A stretch of 32,792 nucleotides of DNA, taken from contig JAAYOP010000097.1 of assembly GCA_012520295.1 (NCBI GenBank), positions 1-32,792 on the forward strand, in the 5' to 3' direction. The notes below the pieces were generated by a model. The model was not told where the DNA came from, ran no database searches, and saw only the letters and a list, made by a program, of their open reading frames with translations. How positions within the stretch are numbered: position 1 is the stretch's first letter; each line of letters opens with the position of its first letter. Below, piece by piece: positions 4,733-32,645 of this stretch. The stretch is from Clostridiales bacterium. GTDB lineage: Bacteria > Bacillota > Clostridia > Oscillospirales > Oscillospiraceae. Both the position numbers and the translations under genes were made by a program.

Positions 4733-4761
4733 GTATATAAAGCTAAATGGGGGTAATAGAG

Positions 4762-6069
4762 GTGAAGGAATCCGACAGGGCAGGCAGTGTAACCGATAAT
4801 AGCAGGGAAAACTCCGAGCTGTATACGGCGGAGCATTACCGCCGACTGGAGGCTTTGATAAATTCTGCCAAGCTGGGAATGGTCATTATAGACCAGTCCC
4901 ATCGCGCAATTCATTCCAATCAAAGATTTGCGGATATGCTGGGATATACAATAGAAGAGGTTTTAGAGCTTTACACATGGGATTGGGAGGTAATAACGCC
5001 CAGGGAGGAAATTGAAGCTGACTTCAGTGATTTGGCAAAAATTGATTTTACTATTGAGACAAAACATCGCCGGAAGGACGGGAGCACCTTTGATGTGGAG
5101 GTAAACGGCACAGGAATCAATTTTGGAAGCTCTCCCGATGACAACGCGATTTTGTGCTTTTGTCAGGATATAAGTGCTAGAAAAGAAGCTGAAAGACTGT
5201 TGATAGAGAGCGAAAGAAAATTCAAGAGCTTTGTGGAAAATGCTGCTGATATGATTTTTACGGTGAATATTTACGGTCATGTGGACTATATCTCTCCAAA
5301 CTGTGAAAGAGTGCTTGGATATCCGCCGGAAAACCTTATGGGACCAAAGCTGCTGGAGCATTTTGAGACAGATGACAGGTTTATGTTTCTCAGGGACATC
5401 AAGATGGCGTTTGACGGAGATTTTCGCACCAGCTATGAATATCGGATTTATAACGGCGAAAGACGTCTGCAATGGTATAGTTTCAAGCTCTCGGAGATTG
5501 AAACTACGAGCGGTCAGCCGCTTATGATATGCAATGCCAGAAATATAACGGAGAAAAAGGAATACGAGAAAATTCTTGAATATGTCAGTATGCACGATCA
5601 GCTGACAGGCGTGTATAACAGGGTGTATTTCAACGAGGAAATAAAACGCAGAGACGAGCAGAACGCTTATCCCTTATCAGTTATTATTTTTGATCTGGAT
5701 GATTTTAAGAGCGTCAATGATAATTGGGGACATGCGGTTGGAGACAGGGTTCTTGTGGAGTGCACAAAGATTGTCGGCCTCAATCTTAGGAAAGATGATG
5801 TGTTGGCACGTACGGGCGGAGATGAGTTTTCGATTTTACTGCCTGCCACATCTGAAAAAGATGCCGGTGTCCTTGCTGAGAGGATAACCAGAAACATTGA
5901 AAAGCACAATGAAAAATCCGGTCTGCCGCCGATTAAGATGTCACTGGGTATCGCATCGAAGGAGAATACATCAACCCCGATTGAAACGATTCTCAGGATA
6001 GCAGATGACAATATGTACATGGAAAAAAAGGAAAAAAAGCGCCTGAGGGAAGCTGGTGAATTGGAATAA
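4762..6069 (+). CDS. PAS-PAS-GGDEF diguanylate cyclase
   Basis: A soluble signalling enzyme that should make cyclic di-GMP from two GTP. Two PAS sensor domains (roughly 30-145 and 150-265) precede a GGDEF domain (roughly 275-435). The catalytic motif GGDEF is intact at 352-356, and the product-inhibition site RxxD (Arg343, Asp346) is present five residues before it. The first metal site in DLDDFKSVND is also intact. No membrane segment is seen, so it senses a cytoplasmic cue. An ATG exists at 4747 but has no ribosome binding site and abuts the transcription start. The GTG at 4762 follows GGGGGT at good spacing and is preferred (435 residues). The gene is monocistronic between its own promoter and a terminator at 6104. 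A second, degenerate GGDEF protein at 29313 could be a reader of its product. Confidence 0.93.
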   Translation: MKESDRAGSVTDNSRENSELYTAEHYRRLEALINSAKLGMVIIDQSHRAIHSNQRFADMLGYTIEEVLELYTWDWEVITPREEIEADFSDLAKIDFTIETKHRRKDGSTFDVEVNGTGINFGSSPDDNAILCFCQDISARKEAERLLIESERKFKSFVENAADMIFTVNIYGHVDYISPNCERVLGYPPENLMGPKLLEHFETDDRFMFLRDIKMAFDGDFRTSYEYRIYNGERRLQWYSFKLSEIETTSGQPLMICNARNITEKKEYEKILEYVSMHDQLTGVYNRVYFNEEIKRRDEQNAYPLSVIIFDLDDFKSVNDNWGHAVGDRVLVECTKIVGLNLRKDDVLARTGGDEFSILLPATSEKDAGVLAERITRNIEKHNEKSGLPPIKMSLGIASKENTSTPIETILRIADDNMYMEKKEKKRLREAGELE

Positions 6070-17236: not shown

Positions 17237-17256
17237 AAAAGCAGAAAAATTTAATA

Positions 17257-17352
17257 GTTTCCGAGCCTTTCGGCCTAAGGGCTTATCATTAAAGCCTATG
17301 GCCGTCTGGCCCGAGAAAAGCTTTCTTTTCTCGCGGGGCCGATGTTGGAAAC
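17257..17352 (+). ncRNA. Moco/Tuco-type riboswitch upstream of moeA
   Basis: A compact three-helix RNA. The closing stem pairs GTTTCC (17257-17262) with GGAAAC (17347-17352). A second hairpin spans 17272-17303 (GGCC ends, AGGGCTT/AAGCCT inside). A third, very stable hairpin pairs GGCCCGAGAAAAG (17308-17320) with CTTTTCTCGCGGGGCC (17325-17340). The junction sequences CCGAGCC and GATGTTGGAAAC, and the place directly before moeA, agree with the molybdenum/tungsten cofactor (MOCO) RNA motif as I remember it. In that class, cofactor binding lowers expression of cofactor-synthesis genes. A terminator 76 nt downstream is the likely expression platform. The structure is seen; the class assignment needs a covariance search. 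Confidence 0.75.
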
Positions 17353-17385
17353 GACACGACCTTCACGTTTTGAGAAGGAGACAAA

Positions 17386-17418
17386 ATGCCGCATTACTTA
17401 TGTAATATGGTTTTATAA
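17386..17418 (+). CDS. possible 10-codon leader peptide between riboswitch and terminator
   Basis: AGAAGGAG lies six bases before an ATG that opens a 10-residue frame (MPHYLCNMVL) ending in TAA, 10 nt before the terminator stem. The ribosome binding site is as good as that of any gene here. Ribosomes on it could influence the terminator. It may also be a chance occurrence. Confidence 0.35.
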   Translation: MPHYLCNMVL

Positions 17419-17428
17419 AAGTATTTGC

Positions 17429-17463
17429 AGCCTGTTTTGTTCTACTCAAAACAGGCTGTTTTT
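17429..17463 (+). terminator. intrinsic terminator / attenuator before moeA
   Basis: A perfect 11-bp stem AGCCTGTTTTG/CAAAACAGGCT (17429-17439, 17447-17457) with a 7-nt loop is followed by GTTTTT. It lies between the riboswitch and moeA on the same transcript, so it must be bypassed for moeA expression. Confidence 0.88.
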
Positions 17464-17500
17464 AACCATATTTCATAATACGTTTAGAAGGATGATTTTG

Positions 17501-18727
17501 ATGCAAAATAACATAAGCGCCGACAGGGCCAGGGATATGCTTCTTGAGCTTCCGGTCCTTTTAAAAACGGAAAAGGTAAAGCTGGAAGCTTCCCATGGCC
17601 GGATTTTGGCCTCAGATGTTTATGCGGAAATCCCTGTTCCCCCCTTTGACAGAAGTCCCTATGACGGGTATGCCTTCAGGGGTGAGGACACTGTATCCGC
17701 CACGAAGGAGAAGCCCGCAATACTTGAGATTACCGAGGAGATTCCGGCGGGAGAGATGCCGGAGGTTGAGATCACTCCCGGCAAAGCGGCAAAAATACTC
17801 ACCGGAGCCCCCATGCCCAAGGGAGCAAATGCCACAGTCAAATATGAGATTACCGAGTATACGGATAAATGGGTAAAGATTTTTGAGCCTGTATCCCCAG
17901 ATACGGATATAGTATATGCGGGCGAGGATATAAAAAAGGGAGAGCTCATAGCCAGTGGGGGGACCGTCATAGACCCGCCACTGGCAGGTCTGCTGGCATG
18001 CCAGGGTGTTTGTGATATTCAGGTATATAAAAAGCCCACAGCCATCATAATCAATACGGGCTCGGAACTGGTGGAAGCAGGTAATCCACTGCCTCCCGCG
18101 AAGATATATAACAGCAATGTGTATACCTTAATGGGCTATTTGCGCAATATGGGAATGCTGGCCCATAACGGGGGGACTGTGGATGATGACCCGGAGCTGA
18201 TTGCTTCCGCAATAACCCAGGCGCTGGAAAAATCCGATGTGGTTATAACAACAGGAGGCTCCTCCGTGGGGGACTATGACTGGTCCCTGAAGGCCTTCGG
18301 TCTGACAGGGGCCCGGGTACTCTTTTGGAAGGTGGCTGTGAAGCCCGGAGGGGCTATGCTGGCTGCCGTAAAAGACAATAAACTGATATTGGGACTTTCA
18401 GGCAATCCCGGGGCGGCTGTTCTGGGTCTATTCAGAGTGGCCATGCCCTATCTTCGCAAGCTGTGCGGGAGGACTGATATACTGCCGGAGACAGTGGAGC
18501 TCTTCCTGGAAAAGTCCTTTAACAAGGCTTCAAAGCCCGCAAGACTCATCAGAGGAAGACTTGTTATAAAGGACGGGAAGGCCTTTTTTTCCGAGAATGA
18601 GCAGCAGGGAAACGGCAGCGTATCCTCCCTGAGTGGCTGCGACCTTATCGCCGAGCTGCCCGCCGGTAGCCCACCCCAGCCGGCAGGCGCTGTTGTGAAG
18701 GCCTATGTGGTGAAAGGCTATATTTGA
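17501..18727 (+). CDS. moeA: molybdopterin molybdotransferase MoeA
   Basis: A 408-residue enzyme of the last cofactor step, which inserts molybdate (or tungstate) into adenylylated molybdopterin. The N-terminal [14 protein letters not shown] loop, the INTGSEL motif, [15 protein letters not shown] and LSGNPGAA of the molybdopterin-binding domain, and the C-terminal beta domain are all visible. The length is typical. The frame is open back into the riboswitch, but AAGGA eight bases before ATG fixes the start at 17501. It is expressed behind a riboswitch and terminator. Its stop codon overlaps the ATG of a moaA remnant, showing that it once headed a longer operon; mogA follows downstream. Confidence 0.95.
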
Positions 18728-21613: not shown

Positions 21614-23190
21614 ATGAAAAGAATACTACATATATGCCTTCTTATGGTGGTCCTGTTCAGCCTTATGAAGAACTCACAGGCATATGAATACAGGCACAGC
21701 ATGTCATATATCTATTTCGGCAACACATCACAGTATACATATTATGTGGACAGGTCTAAAAACTCGATAAATGAAATCTCTCCCAGCTATTTCGACTTAA
21801 ACGAAGACGGCAGCCTGAGGCTTACCGCTACAGTCAGTGAAGAATTCATCAGGGATATGCACAGCAGAGGAATAGCTGTGGTGCCTTTCTTAAGCAACCA
21901 CTGGAATCGGAAAGTTGGCGTGGCCGCTTTGGAAAACAGGCATCTACTTTCAGACCAGATAGTTTCGGCAATCGAAAAGTATAATCTTGACGGGGTAAAC
22001 ATTGACATTGAAAATGTTACAGAATCAGAGCGAGGCTTATGTGGATTTTATAAGGCTGCTTCGGGAGAAGCTGCCTGGAGATAAAATCCTGGCCGTAGCG
22101 GTTTACCGCAAATCCCTATTATACAAATTCCGGCTGGCAGGGCTCCTATGACTATGCCGAGCTGGCAAAGTACAGCGATTATCTGATGATAATGGCATAT
22201 GACGAGAGCTACGAGACCGGACCGGCGGGACCGGTGGCAGGCCTTCCTTTTGTTGAAAAGTCCATACTGTATGCACTGAATCTGGTCCCGGGGGAGAAGA
22301 TAGTGCTGGGGTTGCCGTTCTACGGACGGATATGGTCAAACTCTGGGGGATATCCCCAGGGGTACGGCATCAGCAACGAGAGAATAGAGCAGTTTATATC
22401 AACCTACGGAGGAAGGGTTGTTTTTGACAAAGCCTCTCAATCGCCAAAAGCCACTGTAACCATAAAGCCATGGGATACGAAACCCCTGGTAGGCGGAAAG
22501 GCCCTTGCCCCAGGTACATACACCATATGGTTTGAAAACGAGTTTTCCCTGAAGGGAAAGCTCTCTCTTGTGGAAAAATATAATTTAAAGGGAACAGGCA
22601 GCTGGAGCCTCGGGCAGGAGCAGGCGGAAACCTGGGATTATTATAAATACTGGCTCAACGGCTGCGCTTTTGAGGATATAAGGCACAGCTGGGCAAAGGA
22701 GCAGATATTGCAGGCCTATGTGAAGGGCTGGATTACCGGCTTTTCAAAGGAAAGCTTCATGCCCGAAAAAACTCTGACCCGGGCCCAGGCAGCCGCAATG
22801 CTGGTGCGCATCATGAACCTGGATGTGAGAAAACACAGTGAATATGCCTTTGATGACAGTAAGGGATGCTGGGCGGAGGAATATATTAATACCGCCAGAA
22901 AGCATGGCCTTGTTTCCGGTGTGGAAAATAATCTCTTTAAGCCCGACAGTCCCATATCACGCCAGGAGGTGGCTGTGATGCTCAACAACATCCTGGGCTA
23001 CAGTGCCCAGGGCAGTGTCCCGGCCTTTTCGGACGTATCGCAGACAGGTAATTCATGGTCATATGAGGCTATATGCGCCCTGTCTCAAAAGGGCCTGATT
23101 ACCGGCTATCCGGACATGACCTTCCGCCCGGAATACCACATAACAAGAGCCGAGATGACAGCTTTGCTGACAAGAGTATACGGTGCGTAA
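21614..23190 (+). pseudogene. secreted GH18 glycosidase with three SLH domains, two frameshifts
   Basis: The first frame (21614-22084) encodes a signal peptide and the first half of a GH18 barrel, up to the active-site strand DGVNIDIENV (catalytic Glu). At about 22031 the frame shifts; codons from 22032 read EAYVDFIRLLREKLPGDKIL, the expected continuation. Between 22101 and 22107 it shifts again, and from 22108 the barrel continues ([19 protein letters not shown]) into [10 protein letters not shown] and the rest. Three S-layer-homology domains follow (about 22660-22830, 22845-23010, 23025-23187), which would hold the enzyme to the cell wall. Both shifts are in the same direction and lie within about 75 bp. 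Intact, it would be a peptidoglycan- or chitin-active surface enzyme. Sequencing error is possible. Confidence 0.82.
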
Positions 23191-26307: not shown

Positions 26308-26520
26308 CTATGTGCCTATAACTTCATAGCCCTGTTCTTCAATGGCGGTTTTAAAATTCCCCTCCGTTGCCATGCCCGGATCAAATTCCACCGTGACGGT
26401 TTTCTTTTTTAAATCCACATCCACCGAACTTACGCCGGCCAGCTCTCCGACTGCCTTCTTAACCCTGTTTTCACAGTGTTGACAGGACATACCCTCCACA
26501 TTTAACGTTACTTTTTGCAT
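26308..26520 (-). CDS. copZ: possible internally initiated CopZ-like copper chaperone
   Basis: Within the 3' end of copA, ATG at 26520 is preceded six bases upstream by GGGAGGG, a strong ribosome binding site on the minus strand. From there a 70-residue heavy-metal-associated domain (MQKVTLNVEGMSCQHC...) runs to the shared stop. It could be made separately as a soluble chaperone in addition to being part of the ATPase. The signals are seen; internal translation is inference. Confidence 0.5.
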   Translation of the reverse strand: MQKVTLNVEGMSCQHCENRVKKAVGELAGVSSVDVDLKKKTVTVEFDPGMATEGNFKTAIEEQGYEVIGT

Positions 26521-29001
26521 TGACAACCCTCCCGGATTTTGTTTTATTTTAAAGCGTCTCAGACGCAGGGCGTTTGTAACAACGGATACGGACGAAAAGG
26601 CCATGGCGGCGCCGGCAAAAACAGGACTCAGAAGGGGACCGCCAAAGATATAAAAGACTCCCGCCGCAAAGGGAATACCGATGGTATTGTATATGAATGC
26701 CCAGAACAGGTTTTGCTTGATATTTCTGATGGTTGCCTTGCTCAGAGCAATGGCCGTGGCCACCTCGTTCAGGTCGCCTCCCATTAAGACCACATCGGCG
26801 GATTCCACAGCCACATCGGTGCCGGTGCCTATTGCCATGCCCACATCGGCCTGAACAAGAGCAGGGGCGTCGTTAATCCCGTCGCCCACCATGGCAACCC
26901 TTTTGCCGGAATCCTGCAGCCTCTTAATTTCCCGGGCCTTGTCAGCAGGAAGCACGTCGGAAAGGATGTGCTGAATCCCCACTTCTTTTGCAATGGCCTG
27001 GGCAGTGTTCCGGTTGTCGCCGGTTATCATATATATATCCAGCCCCATGGAACGCAGCCTGAAAATTGCTTCCGCGCTGGATTGCTTCACCGTGTCCGAG
27101 GCGGCCATAAGCGCGTGGAGCTTTCCGTCTGCCGCCACATATAGGAGGGTTCTGCCGGAAGCGGCCAGAGCTCCGGCATCGGCAGTTGCTATCTGCGTAT
27201 CAATATCATTCTCATTCATGAGCTTCAGATTACCTACCAGTACCCTTTGGCCGGATATAACCGCGTCAATTCCCCGACCGGGAACAGCCGTGAATGAGGA
27301 CGGATTATCAGGCTTCATACCCCTGTTTTCAGCCTCCTGAACAACGGCCTTTGCGATGGGATGCTCCGAGCCCCGTTCCGCTGAGGCGCAGAGAAAGAGC
27401 GCCTGCTCCTCGGTGATGTCTCCATACAGCCTGATATCCGTCAGCCTGGGCTTACCCTCGGTGATGGTTCCGGTCTTATCCAGCACCACGGCATCTATCT
27501 TATGGGAGGCCTCAAGAGCCTCACCGCCTTTTATCAGAATGCCCAGCTCGGCTCCCTTTCCTGTGCCTACCATAATTGCCGTAGGCGTGGCAAGTCCCAG
27601 GGCGCAGGGGCAGGCGATTACCAGGACGGAAACGAATATGGAGAGGACAAACTTGAAGTCATAACCCGCTGCTGCCCAGCCAATGGCGGATACAATTGCT
27701 ATTAGCAGAACAACCGGGACAAACCATCCCGAAACCACATCGGCAAGCAGCGCGATGGGTGCTTTTTTCCCTTGGGCTTCTTCCACCAGTTTTATTATTT
27801 TGGACAAGGCCGTGTCTTCGCCCACATGGGTTGCTTTAAATTTGATGAGGCCCTCTCCATTTATGCTGCCCCCTGTTACCCGGGAGCCCGGAGACTTTTC
27901 AACAGGCAGGCTCTCCCCGGTGAGCATGGATTCGTCCGCAGTGGAAATGCCCTCATATACCTGGCCGTCAACAGGGAAGGAGGAGCCGGGTTTAACGATG
28001 ATTATATCCCCGACAGCCACCTCATCCAGAGGTACCTCCAACTCCTTGCCGTCCTTTTCGATGATTGCGGTTGTGGGTCTTAGCTGCATAAGCTTTTTTA
28101 TAGCCTCCGAAGTCTTCCCCTTGCTTCTGGCTTCCAGATATTTACCCACCATAACCAGAGTTATAACCACGGATGCAGATTCAAAATATAGGGACTGGGT
28201 GTAGGCGTGATCGCCCATATAGATTCTGACGGTGGCGAAAATACTGTATAAAAACGCGCTCCCTGTCCCTATGGCAACAAGAGTGTCCATGTTAGGCGCG
28301 CCCTTGAAAAGAGTTTTGAAGCCCCGTGTGTAGAACCTGCTTCCGGCCACCAGAACGGGGATGGTCAGCGCAAACTGAACAAGGGCGAATGTGAGGGGAT
28401 ATCTGTGGTGGTCCAGAAAGCCGGGCATTGGGAGTTTGAGAAAACCAAACATATGCCCCATGGCGATATAAAAAATGGGCACAGAGAATACGATTGCCGT
28501 TATAAGTCTTATGCGCATATTCCGGGCCTGTTTTCTCTCACGTTCCCTCTCAGGGTCCGCCGCGGCTTCGGCTGCAATGTCCCGGGGCGTATAGCCTGCC
28601 TTTTCTATGGCCGCCTTTATTTCCGACAGCTTTATTCGAGAAGGGTCGTATATGAAAGTGCCCCGGTTGGTCATAAGGTTAACCTGGGCGGATTGAACTC
28701 CCTCCAGTTTCCTTGTGGCCCGTTCTACCGCACCGGAACATGCCGCGCAGGTCATACCGTCTATTAAAAGCTCAACCGTTTTTGTGCTTTGTTCACCGAT
28801 GAGCCCGTATCCGGCATCTTCCACAGCCTTCTTAATTGTGTCAAAATCAGTTTTAGTACTGTCAAATTTAACATAGAGCTTTTCTGAGGCTATATTCACA
28901 TTGGCTTGATGAACACCATCCAGCCCGGCCACTGCTTTTTGAACGCTGGCTGCACAGGCTGAGCAGGTCATTCCCGTTACCCTGTAGTTTTTTTCTGTCA
29001 T
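26308..29001 (-). CDS. copA: copper-translocating P1B-type ATPase with C-terminal CopZ-like domain
   Basis: An 897-residue copper exporter of the P1B-1 class. Two N-terminal heavy-metal domains carry CxxC at 13/16 and 85/88 (GMTCSAC, GMTCAAC). The membrane metal site CPC is at 464-466, followed by the phosphorylation motif DKTGTITEGKP and the hinge GDGINDAPAL. After the last helix and the usual ending NALRLRRFK, the frame runs on through a ten-residue linker into a third heavy-metal domain (828-897, GMSCQHC with Cys840/843). That domain is of the size and type of the free chaperone CopZ. The frame is open to 29166, but GGGAGGT before ATG fixes the start at 29001. No copper-sensing regulator is encoded in the window. 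Confidence 0.95.
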   Translation of the reverse strand: MTEKNYRVTGMTCSACAASVQKAVAGLDGVHQANVNIASEKLYVKFDSTKTDFDTIKKAVEDAGYGLIGEQSTKTVELLIDGMTCAACSGAVERATRKLEGVQSAQVNLMTNRGTFIYDPSRIKLSEIKAAIEKAGYTPRDIAAEAAADPERERERKQARNMRIRLITAIVFSVPIFYIAMGHMFGFLKLPMPGFLDHHRYPLTFALVQFALTIPVLVAGSRFYTRGFKTLFKGAPNMDTLVAIGTGSAFLYSIFATVRIYMGDHAYTQSLYFESASVVITLVMVGKYLEARSKGKTSEAIKKLMQLRPTTAIIEKDGKELEVPLDEVAVGDIIIVKPGSSFPVDGQVYEGISTADESMLTGESLPVEKSPGSRVTGGSINGEGLIKFKATHVGEDTALSKIIKLVEEAQGKKAPIALLADVVSGWFVPVVLLIAIVSAIGWAAAGYDFKFVLSIFVSVLVIACPCALGLATPTAIMVGTGKGAELGILIKGGEALEASHKIDAVVLDKTGTITEGKPRLTDIRLYGDITEEQALFLCASAERGSEHPIAKAVVQEAENRGMKPDNPSSFTAVPGRGIDAVISGQRVLVGNLKLMNENDIDTQIATADAGALAASGRTLLYVAADGKLHALMAASDTVKQSSAEAIFRLRSMGLDIYMITGDNRNTAQAIAKEVGIQHILSDVLPADKAREIKRLQDSGKRVAMVGDGINDAPALVQADVGMAIGTGTDVAVESADVVLMGGDLNEVATAIALSKATIRNIKQNLFWAFIYNTIGIPFAAGVFYIFGGPLLSPVFAGAAMAFSSVSVVTNALRLRRFKIKQNPGGLSMQKVTLNVEGMSCQHCENRVKKAVGELAGVSSVDVDLKKKTVTVEFDPGMATEGNFKTAIEEQGYEVIGT

Positions 29002-29312
29002 CTTTACCTCCCATAAGAAAAGGGATTTGAGGAGTCCTTTATATATTCTATATGATATCACAAGTTTACTATATTCAACTGATTTTTTCTGTGTTTTTGT
29101 TACATATAGAAATATTTGTACATTATTCTCGTATGAATGAACATCAAACAATACATATTTCGACAATTTGCACCATATAAAGTCTGATAAAGTTAATTTG
29201 AATAAAATTTAAAAAAATACTATAGAATTTGTAAAAAATTACGATAGATTTATTGTGGGTTATCTATAAATGAATCAAGCCTTAAGGGCAGGCCGATAAG
29301 GTGGAGGTAAAA
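29002..29312. other. AT-rich divergent intergenic region
   Basis: No gene is visible between the divergent copper ATPase and receiver-GGDEF genes. Apart from the plus-strand promoter at 29198-29226, I found no copper-operator-like palindrome and no clear minus-strand promoter. Confidence 0.5.
29198..29226 (+). promoter_or_regulatory. probable promoter of the receiver-GGDEF gene
   Basis: TTGAAT (29198-29203), 17 bp, TATAGA (29221-29226), in a very AT-rich region. The leader would be about 80 nt. Confidence 0.5.
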
Positions 29313-30257
29313 ATGTTCGAAGTGGGAGATAGGAAAATTCGCATCCTTATGGTGGACAGTGACACGGAAAACCTTGAAACCGGAAGAATAATACTGGAGA
29401 GCGAGGGCTATGACATATATATTGCCCATAATGGCGAGACTGCCCTTGAGTTGATTTGCAGTATTAACTTCGACATGGTACTTATTGGCATATCTTTGCC
29501 TGATATGGATGGATTTGAAGCTTTGAACATACTTAAAAACAATGAACACAGCAAAGATATTCCTGTTATATTTCTCACAGACAGGCTGGATGTGGAAACT
29601 GTAGTCAAAGGGTTTATGTCGGGTGCTGTAGATTACATCAGAAAGCCGTTTGTAGAGGTTGAGCTGAAGGCCAGGGTAAAAAACCATGTAAAAATGAAAA
29701 AGATATCCGAGGAGCTTGCCCAAAAAACCACTGACCTGCGCGAAGCATACAGCCTTATTGAGTTTATCAATACAACCGACCCTCTCACAAACCTTTGTAA
29801 CCGGAGAGAGATTATTAACCGTCTTGAGGCTGAAAAGGTGAGGTTTGAGAGGTATAGCCGCCCGTTTTCCCTTATAGCCGCAGATATAGACAATTTTGAG
29901 AGGATAAACGAAACCTATGGTCGGAGATTTGGCGATTATGTTATTACCTGCGTGGCGGATATTTTAAATGGCGGTTCAAGAAAGCAGGACAGTATTGCAA
30001 GGCTGGAGGGCGGGCAATTTTTAATTCTGCTACCTGAAACCGGAAGAGTCGGGGCAATAAACTATGCTGAAAAGAACAGAATCAGAATAGAAGAACATGA
30101 GTTTATAAAAGAAGACAGCAGAGCAAGAATAACCATGACCTTCGGCATCAGTGCCTATGACGGGAAACAGGAGATTGAGGAGCTGGTGGAAAGGGCAGAA
30201 AAAGCGCTGTATGACGGGAAGAAGAAAGCGAAAAACTGTGTATACGCCAATCAATAG
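29313..30257 (+). CDS. degenerate receiver-GGDEF protein, probable c-di-GMP receptor
   Basis: A 314-residue soluble protein: receiver domain (about 8-125), short coiled linker, GGDEF-fold domain (about 150-312). In the receiver the acidic pair (Asp15, Asp17), Thr89 and Lys111 remain, but the phospho-acceptor Asp is Gly59 (codon GGC, 29487-29489). In the second domain GGDEF reads EGGQF (232-236), losing the catalytic Glu, so no cyclase activity is expected. The inhibitory site RxxD is kept (Arg223, Asp226) five residues before it. Proteins such as PopA of Caulobacter keep only this site and act as c-di-GMP receptors. An in-frame GTG at 29301 is part of the GGAGGT ribosome binding site; ATG at 29313 is preferred. 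Monocistronic. Confidence 0.92.
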   Translation: MFEVGDRKIRILMVDSDTENLETGRIILESEGYDIYIAHNGETALELICSINFDMVLIGISLPDMDGFEALNILKNNEHSKDIPVIFLTDRLDVETVVKGFMSGAVDYIRKPFVEVELKARVKNHVKMKKISEELAQKTTDLREAYSLIEFINTTDPLTNLCNRREIINRLEAEKVRFERYSRPFSLIAADIDNFERINETYGRRFGDYVITCVADILNGGSRKQDSIARLEGGQFLILLPETGRVGAINYAEKNRIRIEEHEFIKEDSRARITMTFGISAYDGKQEIEELVERAEKALYDGKKKAKNCVYANQ

Positions 30258-30282: not shown

Positions 30283-30305
30283 CCGGGCCAAAGGCCCGGT
30301 TTTTT
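30283..30305 (+). terminator. intrinsic terminator after receiver-GGDEF gene
   Basis: A 7-bp GC stem CCGGGCC/GGCCCGG (30283-30289, 30293-30299) with an AAA loop is followed by six T. Confidence 0.9.
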
Positions 30306-30435: not shown

Positions 30436-31821
30436 ATGCCGATAACAGGAGCTTTTATACTGCCCCATCCTCCCATCATAATGCCCCAGGTCGGGCGCGG
30501 TGAGGAGAAAAAAATCAGCAAAACCATAAGCTCATTTGAAGAGATAGCCAGAAGAGTAGCGGCGCTAAAGCCGGATACGATAGTTCTCACATCTCCCCAC
30601 AGCATAATGTACAGTGATTATTTTCACATATCGCCGGGCGTATCGGCACAAGGGGATTTGGGCAGCTTCGGGGCGCCCCAGGTAGCAGTAAGCGCCCGAT
30701 ATGACACATGGTTTATCGGTGAGCTGGAAAAAGAGGCAAAATCCAAAGGGATACCGGCCGGAACCCTTGGTGAACGGGATAAGACCCTAGACCATGGCAC
30801 GGTGATTCCCCTGGCATTTGTAAACAAGGTTTACTCTGATTACTCCCTTGTCCGCATCGGACTGTCGGGACTGCCCCTTGCCGACCACTACAGGCTGGGT
30901 ATGTGTATCGCCCGGGTAGCGGAGCGCTCCGGGAAGAATGTGGTTTTCATTGCCAGCGGAGATCTGTCCCATAAGGTATCAGCCAGCGGCCCCTATGGCT
31001 TTGCTCCCGAGGGGCCGGAGTTTGACAGGCAGATAACAGGGGCGATGGCGGAGGGCGATTTCCTCAAGTTCCTGTCATTTCCTCCTGAGTTCACCGAAAA
31101 AGCCGCCGAGTGCGGCCTCAGGTCCTGTGTAATCATGGCCGGAGCCCTGGACGGGAAAAGGGTCCAGGCGGAGCTGCTGTCATATGAGGGAACATTTGGT
31201 GTTGGCTATGGAACTGCATCCTTTTTTCCCGGCGGAGAAGATGGCAGCCGCAGGTTTCTGGAGATATATTTGGAGCGGGAACGCAGTAGAATAGAGGAAA
31301 TTAAAAAGAATGAGGATGAATATGTAAAGCTGGCCAGGCACTGCGTTGAGCATTTCATAAAAACCGGAAAACTAGCCCCTGTTCCCCAAGGGCTCTCTGA
31401 TGAAATGCTCAAGTCGAAGGCGGGAGTATTTGTGACAATAAAAAAACACGGCGAGCTTCGCGGCTGTATTGGCACAATTTCTCCGGTCACAAATAGTATA
31501 GCCGAGGAGATTTGCAGAAACGCCGTAAGCTCCTGCGCCGGGGACCCCCGTTTTGACCCTGTCCGCCCGGAGGAGCTTCCGGACCTACAGTACAGTGTGG
31601 ATGTGCTCTCACCTCCGGAGAACATTTCCTCTCCGGACATGCTGGACGTTAAGCGCTATGGTGTTATAGTTTCCCGCGGCGCCCGAAGAGGTCTCCTGCT
31701 TCCCAATCTGGACGGAGTGGACACGGTGGAACAACAGATAGACATTGCCATGAAAAAGGCAGGCATCAGGCCGGGAGAGGACTATAAGCTGCAGAGATTT
31801 GAGGTGATCAGGCATCAATGA
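30436..31821 (+). CDS. AmmeMemoRadiSam system protein: Memo-like and AMMECR1 domain fusion
   Basis: A 461-residue two-domain protein. Residues 1 to about 265 belong to the Memo/LigB-like (extradiol dioxygenase fold) superfamily: FILPHPPIIMP at the start, TSPHS, LDHGTVIPLAF and FIASGDLSHK contain the His/Asp residues of the metal-site region. Residues about 285-461 are an AMMECR1 domain with the hallmark LRGCIGTI and an RRGLLLPNLDGV segment. The two families, together with a radical SAM enzyme, form the conserved AmmeMemoRadiSam trio; here two are fused and the third overlaps downstream by four bases. I know of no settled biochemical role. The ATG follows AAAGGAG. Confidence 0.93.
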   Translation: MPITGAFILPHPPIIMPQVGRGEEKKISKTISSFEEIARRVAALKPDTIVLTSPHSIMYSDYFHISPGVSAQGDLGSFGAPQVAVSARYDTWFIGELEKEAKSKGIPAGTLGERDKTLDHGTVIPLAFVNKVYSDYSLVRIGLSGLPLADHYRLGMCIARVAERSGKNVVFIASGDLSHKVSASGPYGFAPEGPEFDRQITGAMAEGDFLKFLSFPPEFTEKAAECGLRSCVIMAGALDGKRVQAELLSYEGTFGVGYGTASFFPGGEDGSRRFLEIYLERERSRIEEIKKNEDEYVKLARHCVEHFIKTGKLAPVPQGLSDEMLKSKAGVFVTIKKHGELRGCIGTISPVTNSIAEEICRNAVSSCAGDPRFDPVRPEELPDLQYSVDVLSPPENISSPDMLDVKRYGVIVSRGARRGLLLPNLDGVDTVEQQIDIAMKKAGIRPGEDYKLQRFEVIRHQ

Positions 31822-32645
31822 GAGCGGTGTGTGATATATGCCCCCATCACTGCGGATTGAAGGAAGGGGAAACGGGGTTTTGTAAAGCAAGAACAAATAT
31901 AAACGGCAGTATAACCTGCATAAACTACGGAAAGCTCACCTCGTTGGCCCTGGATCCTATAGAAAAAAAGCCTCTGAACCGCTTTCTTCCCGGAAGTAAA
32001 ATTCTGTCGGCCGGCAGCTTCGGATGCAATCTGAGATGTCCCTTCTGTCAGAACCACTGCATATCCATGGCCGGCGAGGAGGAGATTGAATCGGTATTCC
32101 TGTCGCCGGAGGAGCTTGTGGAAAAAGCGCTGGAGCTTGTTCCGAGGGGTAACATAGGTATTGCCTATACGTATAATGAGCCCCTTGTGGGCTATGAATA
32201 TGTGGCCGACTGCGGAAGGCTGGCCCGTGAAAAAAAGCTAAAAAACGTGCTTGTTACAAACGGCTATATATGCCCCGGACCCCTGACTGATCTTCTGCCC
32301 TTGATTGATGCCATGAATATTGACCTGAAGAGCTTTGATATGAAGTTCTATAAGCGTATTGGCGGCAAGTTGGAAACAGTTAAGCAGACAATTCGTCTTG
32401 CGGCCGCAAGCTGCCATGTGGAAATCACCTTTCTGGTTATACCGAACGAAAACGACAGTGCCGATGAAATAAAAGCCATGTCGGAATGGATTTCTTGGAT
32501 AGACCCGGACATACCCCTTCATATATCCCGTTTCTTTCCCATGTACAGGTATGACATGAGAAAGCCCACACCCGTATCAAAGGTGTATGAACTTGCTGAA
32601 ATCGCCAAAAAGAGCCTCAGATATGTGTATACAGGTAACTGCTGA
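31818..32645 (+). CDS. amrS: AmmeMemoRadiSam system radical SAM enzyme
   Basis: A 275-residue radical SAM protein related to pyruvate formate-lyase-activating enzymes. The N-terminal Cys-rich CDICPHHCGL...GFCKAR segment is typical of this system. The SAM 4Fe-4S motif is CNLRCPFC (CxxxCxxC), followed by AYTYNEP and MNIDLKSFD of the barrel. The chain ends YVYTGNC, shorter than family members with an additional C-terminal cysteine-rich stretch; I read this as the short form, not a truncation. The start ATG overlaps the stop codon of the Memo-AMMECR1 gene (ATGA), implying translational coupling. No terminator or gene follows to the window end. Confidence 0.93.
   Translation: MRAVCDICPHHCGLKEGETGFCKARTNINGSITCINYGKLTSLALDPIEKKPLNRFLPGSKILSAGSFGCNLRCPFCQNHCISMAGEEEIESVFLSPEELVEKALELVPRGNIGIAYTYNEPLVGYEYVADCGRLAREKKLKNVLVTNGYICPGPLTDLLPLIDAMNIDLKSFDMKFYKRIGGKLETVKQTIRLAAASCHVEITFLVIPNENDSADEIKAMSEWISWIDPDIPLHISRFFPMYRYDMRKPTPVSKVYELAEIAKKSLRYVYTGNC

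Follow-up and report, generated by a model that had tools for sequence, protein, structure and literature searches.

A probably non-catalytic REC-GGDEF protein from a Clostridiales bacterium as a proposed I-site receptor of c-di-GMP

The gene and its surroundings

The window, as the whole stretch of 32,792 nucleotides analysed here is called, comes from a draft assembly of 157 contigs and holds towards its 3' end a gene for a protein with a receiver (REC) domain and a GGDEF domain. By direct reading, its frame is intact from the ATG at 29313 to the stop codon at 30255–30257, and it is flanked by signals for both translation and termination:

29313..30257, + strand: REC-GGDEF protein, predicted to be non-catalytic, proposed I-site c-di-GMP receptor (ORF, Pfam, alignments, AlphaFold2, Foldseek)
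29299..29307, + strand: ribosome-binding site region AGGTGGAGG, shortly 5' of the ATG at 29313 (direct reading)
30283..30305, + strand: intrinsic terminator CCGGGCC-AAA-GGCCCGG-TTTTTT, 3' of the REC-GGDEF gene (direct reading)
30436..32645, + strand: AmmeMemoRadiSam B/A fusion and radical SAM enzyme, syntenic in both congeners (orthology marker)

The terminator folds with -20.5 kcal/mol (z -3.0); in the terminator scan, its stem was listed on the opposite strand alone. Being closed by this element, the REC-GGDEF gene is probably a single-gene transcription unit. An operon with the AmmeMemoRadiSam genes was ruled out by the strong terminator in between, despite the gene order being kept in the congener (the genus consists of two genomes, that of the window and G001), where the ortholog is likewise trailed by a terminator-like stem.

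AmmeMemoRadiSam B and A form one fused gene, next to which lies the radical SAM enzyme gene; these neighbors were used for establishing orthology and play no part in the mechanism proposed below. On the other side, a gene for a CopA-type copper ATPase (26308–29166) adjoins the REC-GGDEF gene and diverges from it, while in the congener formate-tetrahydrofolate ligase-like and peptidase-like genes separate the two. We know of no link between these conserved neighbors and c-di-GMP.

Elsewhere in the window, a molybdenum/tungsten cofactor riboswitch (RF01055, 75 bits) occupies positions 17247–17396, directly 5' of a moeA-type gene, the ORF of which (17342–18727) probably has its true start further downstream. 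A gene with GH18 and S-layer-homology (SLH) domains is split into an N-terminal half (21614–22084) and a C-terminal half (22099–23190) that lie in different frames, and is therefore frameshifted or mis-assembled.

A GGDEF domain without its catalytic residues

The C-terminal half of the protein is recognized by Pfam as a GGDEF domain (6e-33), the signature motif of which is replaced:

29772..30236, + strand: degenerate GGDEF domain PF00990, residues 154–308 (Pfam)
30006..30020, + strand: EGGQF, residues 232–236, replacing GG(D/E)EF (direct reading, alignment; GAAEF in the ortholog)

The alignment of EGGQF with GG(D/E)EF is free of gaps, and the degeneration extends beyond the motif, with the substitutions K196E (PleD K332), H204R, and R307K (PleD R446). 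The metal-binding acid and the phosphate lysine of active REC-GGDEF cyclases are both absent (E234G and K196E). Both congeners have lost E234, replaced by Gly or Ala, as well as K196 and H204, but their remaining losses differ: G232E, E235Q, and R307K in the window protein, and D191E, N199S, G207S, and G233A in the ortholog. The window protein retains D191, F195, N199, D208, and K303.

This degeneration was assessed on the columns that are at least 85% conserved among 41 homologs from outside the genus. The GGDEF domain has 37 of them, and one or both congeners deviate in 12: 7 of the 11 catalytic columns versus 5 of the 26 others (Fisher P=0.018). The clustering of the losses in catalytic columns thus exceeds chance. 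Each congener has lost five catalytic columns, compared with none or one in the other homologs (43 homologs in all). Taken together, the sequences indicate that the lineage of the genus lost catalysis, and that the active sites then drifted separately while the rest of the protein was maintained. The statement of the initial annotation that no synthesis is to be expected is supported, and the catalytic loss is common to the genus. The residues are read from the sequence, and the inactivity that their absence predicts follows from what is known of the family.

Residual synthesis of c-di-GMP, or of another dinucleotide, by an unusual active site is highly unlikely. Enzymes with the motifs AGDEF (VCA0965) and SGDEF (ECA3270) are active (PMC3974145), and CbrR, with the motif SAEKI, synthesizes weakly (PMC8779298). 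However, those active enzymes that begin the motif with Ala or Ser still have its acid at position 3. In the window protein, Gly has taken the place of this metal-binding acid (Ala in the ortholog), Gln is found at position 4, and the phosphate lysine has become Glu; furthermore, Gly and Val at motif positions 3 and 4 inactivate WspR (PMC3509222). The degenerate active site could also be imagined as still binding nucleotides, making the protein a sensor of GTP (or ATP) like CC3396 from Caulobacter (PMC7288161), in line with the five residues retained in the window protein. This is extremely doubtful, since the ortholog lacks N199, the base-binding Asn, and has D191 changed, K196 is lost in both congeners, Glu232 would be expected to crowd the phosphate loop, and the window protein has no EAL domain to regulate.

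A receiver domain that has lost its phosphorylation site

The N-terminal domain is matched by Response_reg from Pfam at residues 11–123 (5e-23):

29334..29684, + strand: pseudo-receiver domain, residues 8–124 (alignments, conserved-column analysis)
29487..29489, + strand: Gly59 codon GGC, at the position of the phospho-Asp (direct reading, alignments)

D15, T89, and K111 are kept, while D16 is replaced by Ser and D59 by Gly. The set required in a phosphorylatable receiver (a DD pair, the phosphorylated Asp, Thr/Ser, and Lys) is incomplete in both congeners, although not to the same extent, since the ortholog carries D16N but retains D59. Asp is found at position 59 in 38 of 38 homologs from outside the genus and also in the ortholog, so that Gly59 is specific to the species of the window. 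On the other hand, Asp16, the second Mg-binding acid of the receiver, has been lost from both proteins (Ser in one, Asn in the other), and the chemistry of the receiver was probably already damaged in their common ancestor. D107 and R121 are retained in both, at positions that presumably match the salt bridge of OmpR-type receiver dimers.

The protein had been described as doubly degenerate, which is correct for the species of the window (Gly59 and EGGQF) but does not extend to the genus. The conservation of both features in orthologs, proposed as a check, accordingly gives a divided answer: the ortholog has Asp59 in place, and its GGDEF motif, GAAEF, is nevertheless dead.

A retained I-site

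In contrast to the catalytic residues, those of the inhibitory site have been kept:

29979..29990, + strand: RKQD I-site, Arg223–Asp226 (direct reading, alignment; identical in the ortholog)
29841..29843, + strand: Arg177, corresponding to R313 of the secondary I-site of PleD (ungapped PleD alignment)
30072..30074, + strand: Lys254, at the position of PleD R390, the third residue of the primary I-site (alignments)

R223 and D226 lie 9 and 6 residues ahead of the motif's first residue, like R359 and D362 in PleD, and the alignment around the I-site and the motif has no gaps. The coordinates of the gene, Gly59, EGGQF, and the spacing of the RxxD residues had all been given exactly by the initial annotation, as confirmed on the sequence, the alignments, and the Pfam matches. 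Position 177 is Arg in the ortholog too, and also in the closest homolog from outside the genus (genome G764), while the position of PleD R390 is Lys in both congeners. A GGDEF domain with dead catalysis and a kept I-site is the accepted signature of I-site c-di-GMP receptors.

The combination of a degenerate motif and RxxD is not rare in general, since RxxD is present in about 53% of GGDEF domains and the motif is degenerate in about 24% of DGCs (PMC3974145). In this genus it recurs in the single ortholog (GAAEF and RKQD), so that the conservation of the I-site is read from two sequences. A statistical proof of selection on the I-site was attempted on the conserved columns: columns 223, 226, and 256 of the I-site region are intact in both congeners, a retention with a probability of 0.30 by chance, which is not significant alone.

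This last result bears on a rather unlikely alternative, in which the protein would be a pseudo-enzyme scaffold that binds no c-di-GMP, its dead GGDEF domain serving as a dimerization or docking module, for example to damp an active cyclase, and RxxD being a leftover. Such a role would agree with the fact that cyclases act as dimers and with the retention of D107/R121 and the coiled coil, and it has a precedent in TmoK from Myxococcus xanthus, whose GGDEF domain is capable of neither synthesis nor binding of c-di-GMP (PMC4877007). TmoK illustrates that a lack of synthesis does not always mean binding of c-di-GMP, which counts against a receptor, as does the Lys at the position of PleD R390. 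Against a mere scaffold, R223, D226, R177, and Lys254 are common to both congeners, while the catalytic residues drifted separately.

Predicted structure

The AlphaFold2 model, computed from 37 sequences, has a mean pLDDT of 96.1 and joins the two domains by a continuous helix:

29685..29777, + strand: coiled-coil linker helix, within helix residues 115–154 (DSSP of the model, alignments)

Full-length WspR, DgcR, and PleD are the top matches in Foldseek, and the model superposes at about 1.3 Å on single GGDEF domains that have c-di-GMP bound. From the KP of the receiver to DxLT there are 45 residues, i.e., the 31 of DgcR plus 14 (two heptads), which fits the heptad-spaced coiled-coil rule of WspR/DgcR-type cyclases; linker lengths spaced by heptads have been described for this class (PMC8041772).

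Relatives and the course of the losses

Across 1255 genome searches, only one other ortholog was found, that of the congener; the family (400 genomes), the order (394), and the class (391) yielded no further one, their next matches being canonical cyclases. A scan of contigs with the single sequence gave distant receivers only. The ortholog is 54% identical to the window protein and has the same neighbors, with the genes for the AmmeMemoRadiSam B/A fusion and the radical SAM enzyme 3' of it and the CopA-type ATPase on its opposite side; besides Asp59, Asn16, GAAEF, and RKQD, it holds EID instead of DID and Ser at the base-binding Asn.

The closest protein from outside the genus (L033, from a genome of the same class, G764) shares 43% identity over 303 residues with no gap and is canonical throughout, with VDD, Asp59, GGEEF, and REQD. 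In the maximum-likelihood tree of 43 proteins, the congeners are joined with 100/100 support and L033 is their sister with 100/94, so catalysis was lost inside the lineage of the genus. The gene for L033 lies directly 3' of the gene for an 865-residue histidine kinase, a Cache-HAMP kinase that precedes it with zero intergenic gap (the pair is at L063, 6018–9587). This kinase has no strong match in the genome of the window, in keeping with a loss of phospho-input, and in the congener only its core is matched. The pairing of kinase and REC-GGDEF protein is probably ancestral and was lost by the genus of the window.

Both congeners have open reading frames of full length. Their genes differ by 0.32, 0.26, and 0.62 at the first, second, and third codon positions, respectively, and the protein sequence is therefore constrained in both domains; dN/dS was set aside because synonymous sites are saturated, and the differences by codon position are reported instead. 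These data also bear on the idea that the gene is decaying, with both domains losing function, and that the species-specific Gly59 is a further step or an error of sequencing or binning in a metagenome-type assembly. Gly59 (GGC) is indeed one transition away from Asp (GAC) and is not found in the ortholog, the catalytic residues lost differ in part between the two species, and the window holds another broken gene, that of the GH18-SLH protein. Even so, decay is improbable: third positions change about twice as frequently as first and second ones, the frames are full-length in both species, the window gene has its ribosome-binding site and terminator, the predicted fold is intact, and the gene order is kept.

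The c-di-GMP network of the genome

Above the curated cut-offs, the genome has 14 matches to GGDEF, 5 to EAL, 5 to HD_5, and 2 to PilZ; it also carries two tandem c-di-GMP-I riboswitches. With such a full network, both the ligand and its signaling are expected in this genome. The PAS-GGDEF protein of the window, placed at 4762 by the initial annotation and here at 4747–6069, is intact, as was claimed (DLDDFK, RKDD, and GGDEF). As the suggested source of the ligand it has no privileged position, and a special link to it was rejected, since the genome encodes several intact GGDEF proteins and this one lies 23 kb away. In this genome, most of the remaining degenerate GGDEF domains are fused to EAL or HD domains.

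The tandem riboswitches (L090, positions 973–1242, in contig C54 of G000) are located 5' of a gene for a small secreted protein that by eye resembles CAP/SCP-domain proteins, and which is a candidate direct target of c-di-GMP in this genome.

Comparison with characterized proteins

A counterpart in layout is ActA from M. xanthus, which comprises REC and GGDEF with a degenerate A-site and an intact I-site (PMC3509222). Compared by description, it shares with the window protein the two-domain layout, the lack of an output domain, the dead active site, and the kept RxxD, but it belongs to a different phylum. Development is unaffected by its clean deletion (PMC4877007).

The window protein had also been likened to PopA from Caulobacter, a c-di-GMP receptor through RxxD (PMC10333796, PMC12564702). 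The likeness holds for the mode of action, since PopA combines a degenerate GGDEF domain bearing RxxD with the lack of an enzymatic output domain, and recruits partners. It does not hold for the architecture, because PopA is a REC-REC-GGDEF protein of the alphaproteobacterial PleD/PopA branch, whereas there is a single receiver in the window protein, for which membership in the PopA family was ruled out on its architecture. Among the proteins found, the one closest to it, in a tree without PopA sequences, is a canonical cyclase with a single REC from the same class.

CdgA (Bd3125) from Bdellovibrio holds GVNEF and RxxD, does not synthesize c-di-GMP but binds it with a Kd of about 2 uM, and is localized at the cell pole (PMC3271064). 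It resembles the window protein in its dead motif and in the RxxD at the I-site position, with no orthology claimed. In SgmT from M. xanthus (GGGVF and RHPD), c-di-GMP is bound by the I-site, and binding is abolished by exchanging Arg for Ala (PMC3509222). SgmT also has Gly in motif position 3 and an intact RxxD, but in this hybrid histidine kinase, which also contains GAF and REC domains, GGDEF is an accessory for clustering. A degenerate REC and GGDEF are followed by an EAL domain in FimX (PMC12564702); it likewise pairs a receiver lacking the phosphorylation site with a dead GGDEF domain, but binds c-di-GMP through EAL, which the window protein lacks. WspR, DgcR, and PleD are the closest solved structures, with the same domain folds and I-site, and with a coiled-coil linker in WspR and DgcR. 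Unlike the window protein, these are active cyclases (REC-GGDEF or REC-REC-GGDEF) with intact catalytic motifs, inhibited through their I-site.

Proposed mechanism

The reading preferred here, with a probability of roughly 0.6, is that a phospho-regulated cyclase was converted across the genus into a non-catalytic I-site receptor of c-di-GMP, which would act through a rearrangement of its dimer and contact with a partner. First, no c-di-GMP synthesis would be expected from a protein that lacks the Mg-binding acid and the phosphate-binding lysine along with further catalytic residues. Second, the receiver, which in this species has no phosphorylatable Asp, is probably now a module for dimerization or partner binding, possibly offering a docking face. 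Third, c-di-GMP from other sources in the cell, probably in the form of an intercalated dimer, would bind to Arg223 and Asp226 (and Lys254) of one GGDEF domain, while the same ligand would contact Arg177 of the other protomer, cross-linking both GGDEF domains. Such a cross-link between the primary site and an arginine of the other protomer by a c-di-GMP dimer is known from PleD, WspR, and DgcR (PMC8041772, PMC2270323, PMC7288161). Finally, the cross-link would fix one arrangement of the coiled-coil dimer, to be recognized by a partner or a site in the cell, on the model of PopA, CdgA, and SgmT (PMC10333796, PMC3271064, PMC3509222). Protein–protein contact, already suggested as the output by the initial annotation, is indeed the likeliest one, since there is no output domain.

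More tentatively, the input and output chemistries may have been stripped in steps in this uncultured genus until only the feedback site was left, turning product inhibition into ligand sensing, with the two congeners as successive stages in which Asp59 is first kept and then lost. The conversion of an enzyme into a receptor, recognized in turn by a partner, would then be laid out as a clear evolutionary series.

Implications

The automatic label of diguanylate cyclase would be wrong for this REC-GGDEF gene. Receptors built on a degenerate GGDEF domain and its I-site are already an established kind, and what is plausibly special here, judged from the sequences, is the stepwise series within one genus. 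If binding is confirmed, an I-site receptor would be added beyond the proteobacterial and myxobacterial examples, and a close series would become available, from the canonical sister encoded next to a histidine kinase, through the ortholog with a partly damaged receiver, to the window protein, which has lost both chemistries; the conversion of a cyclase into a receptor would be testable in this series through a few residue changes.
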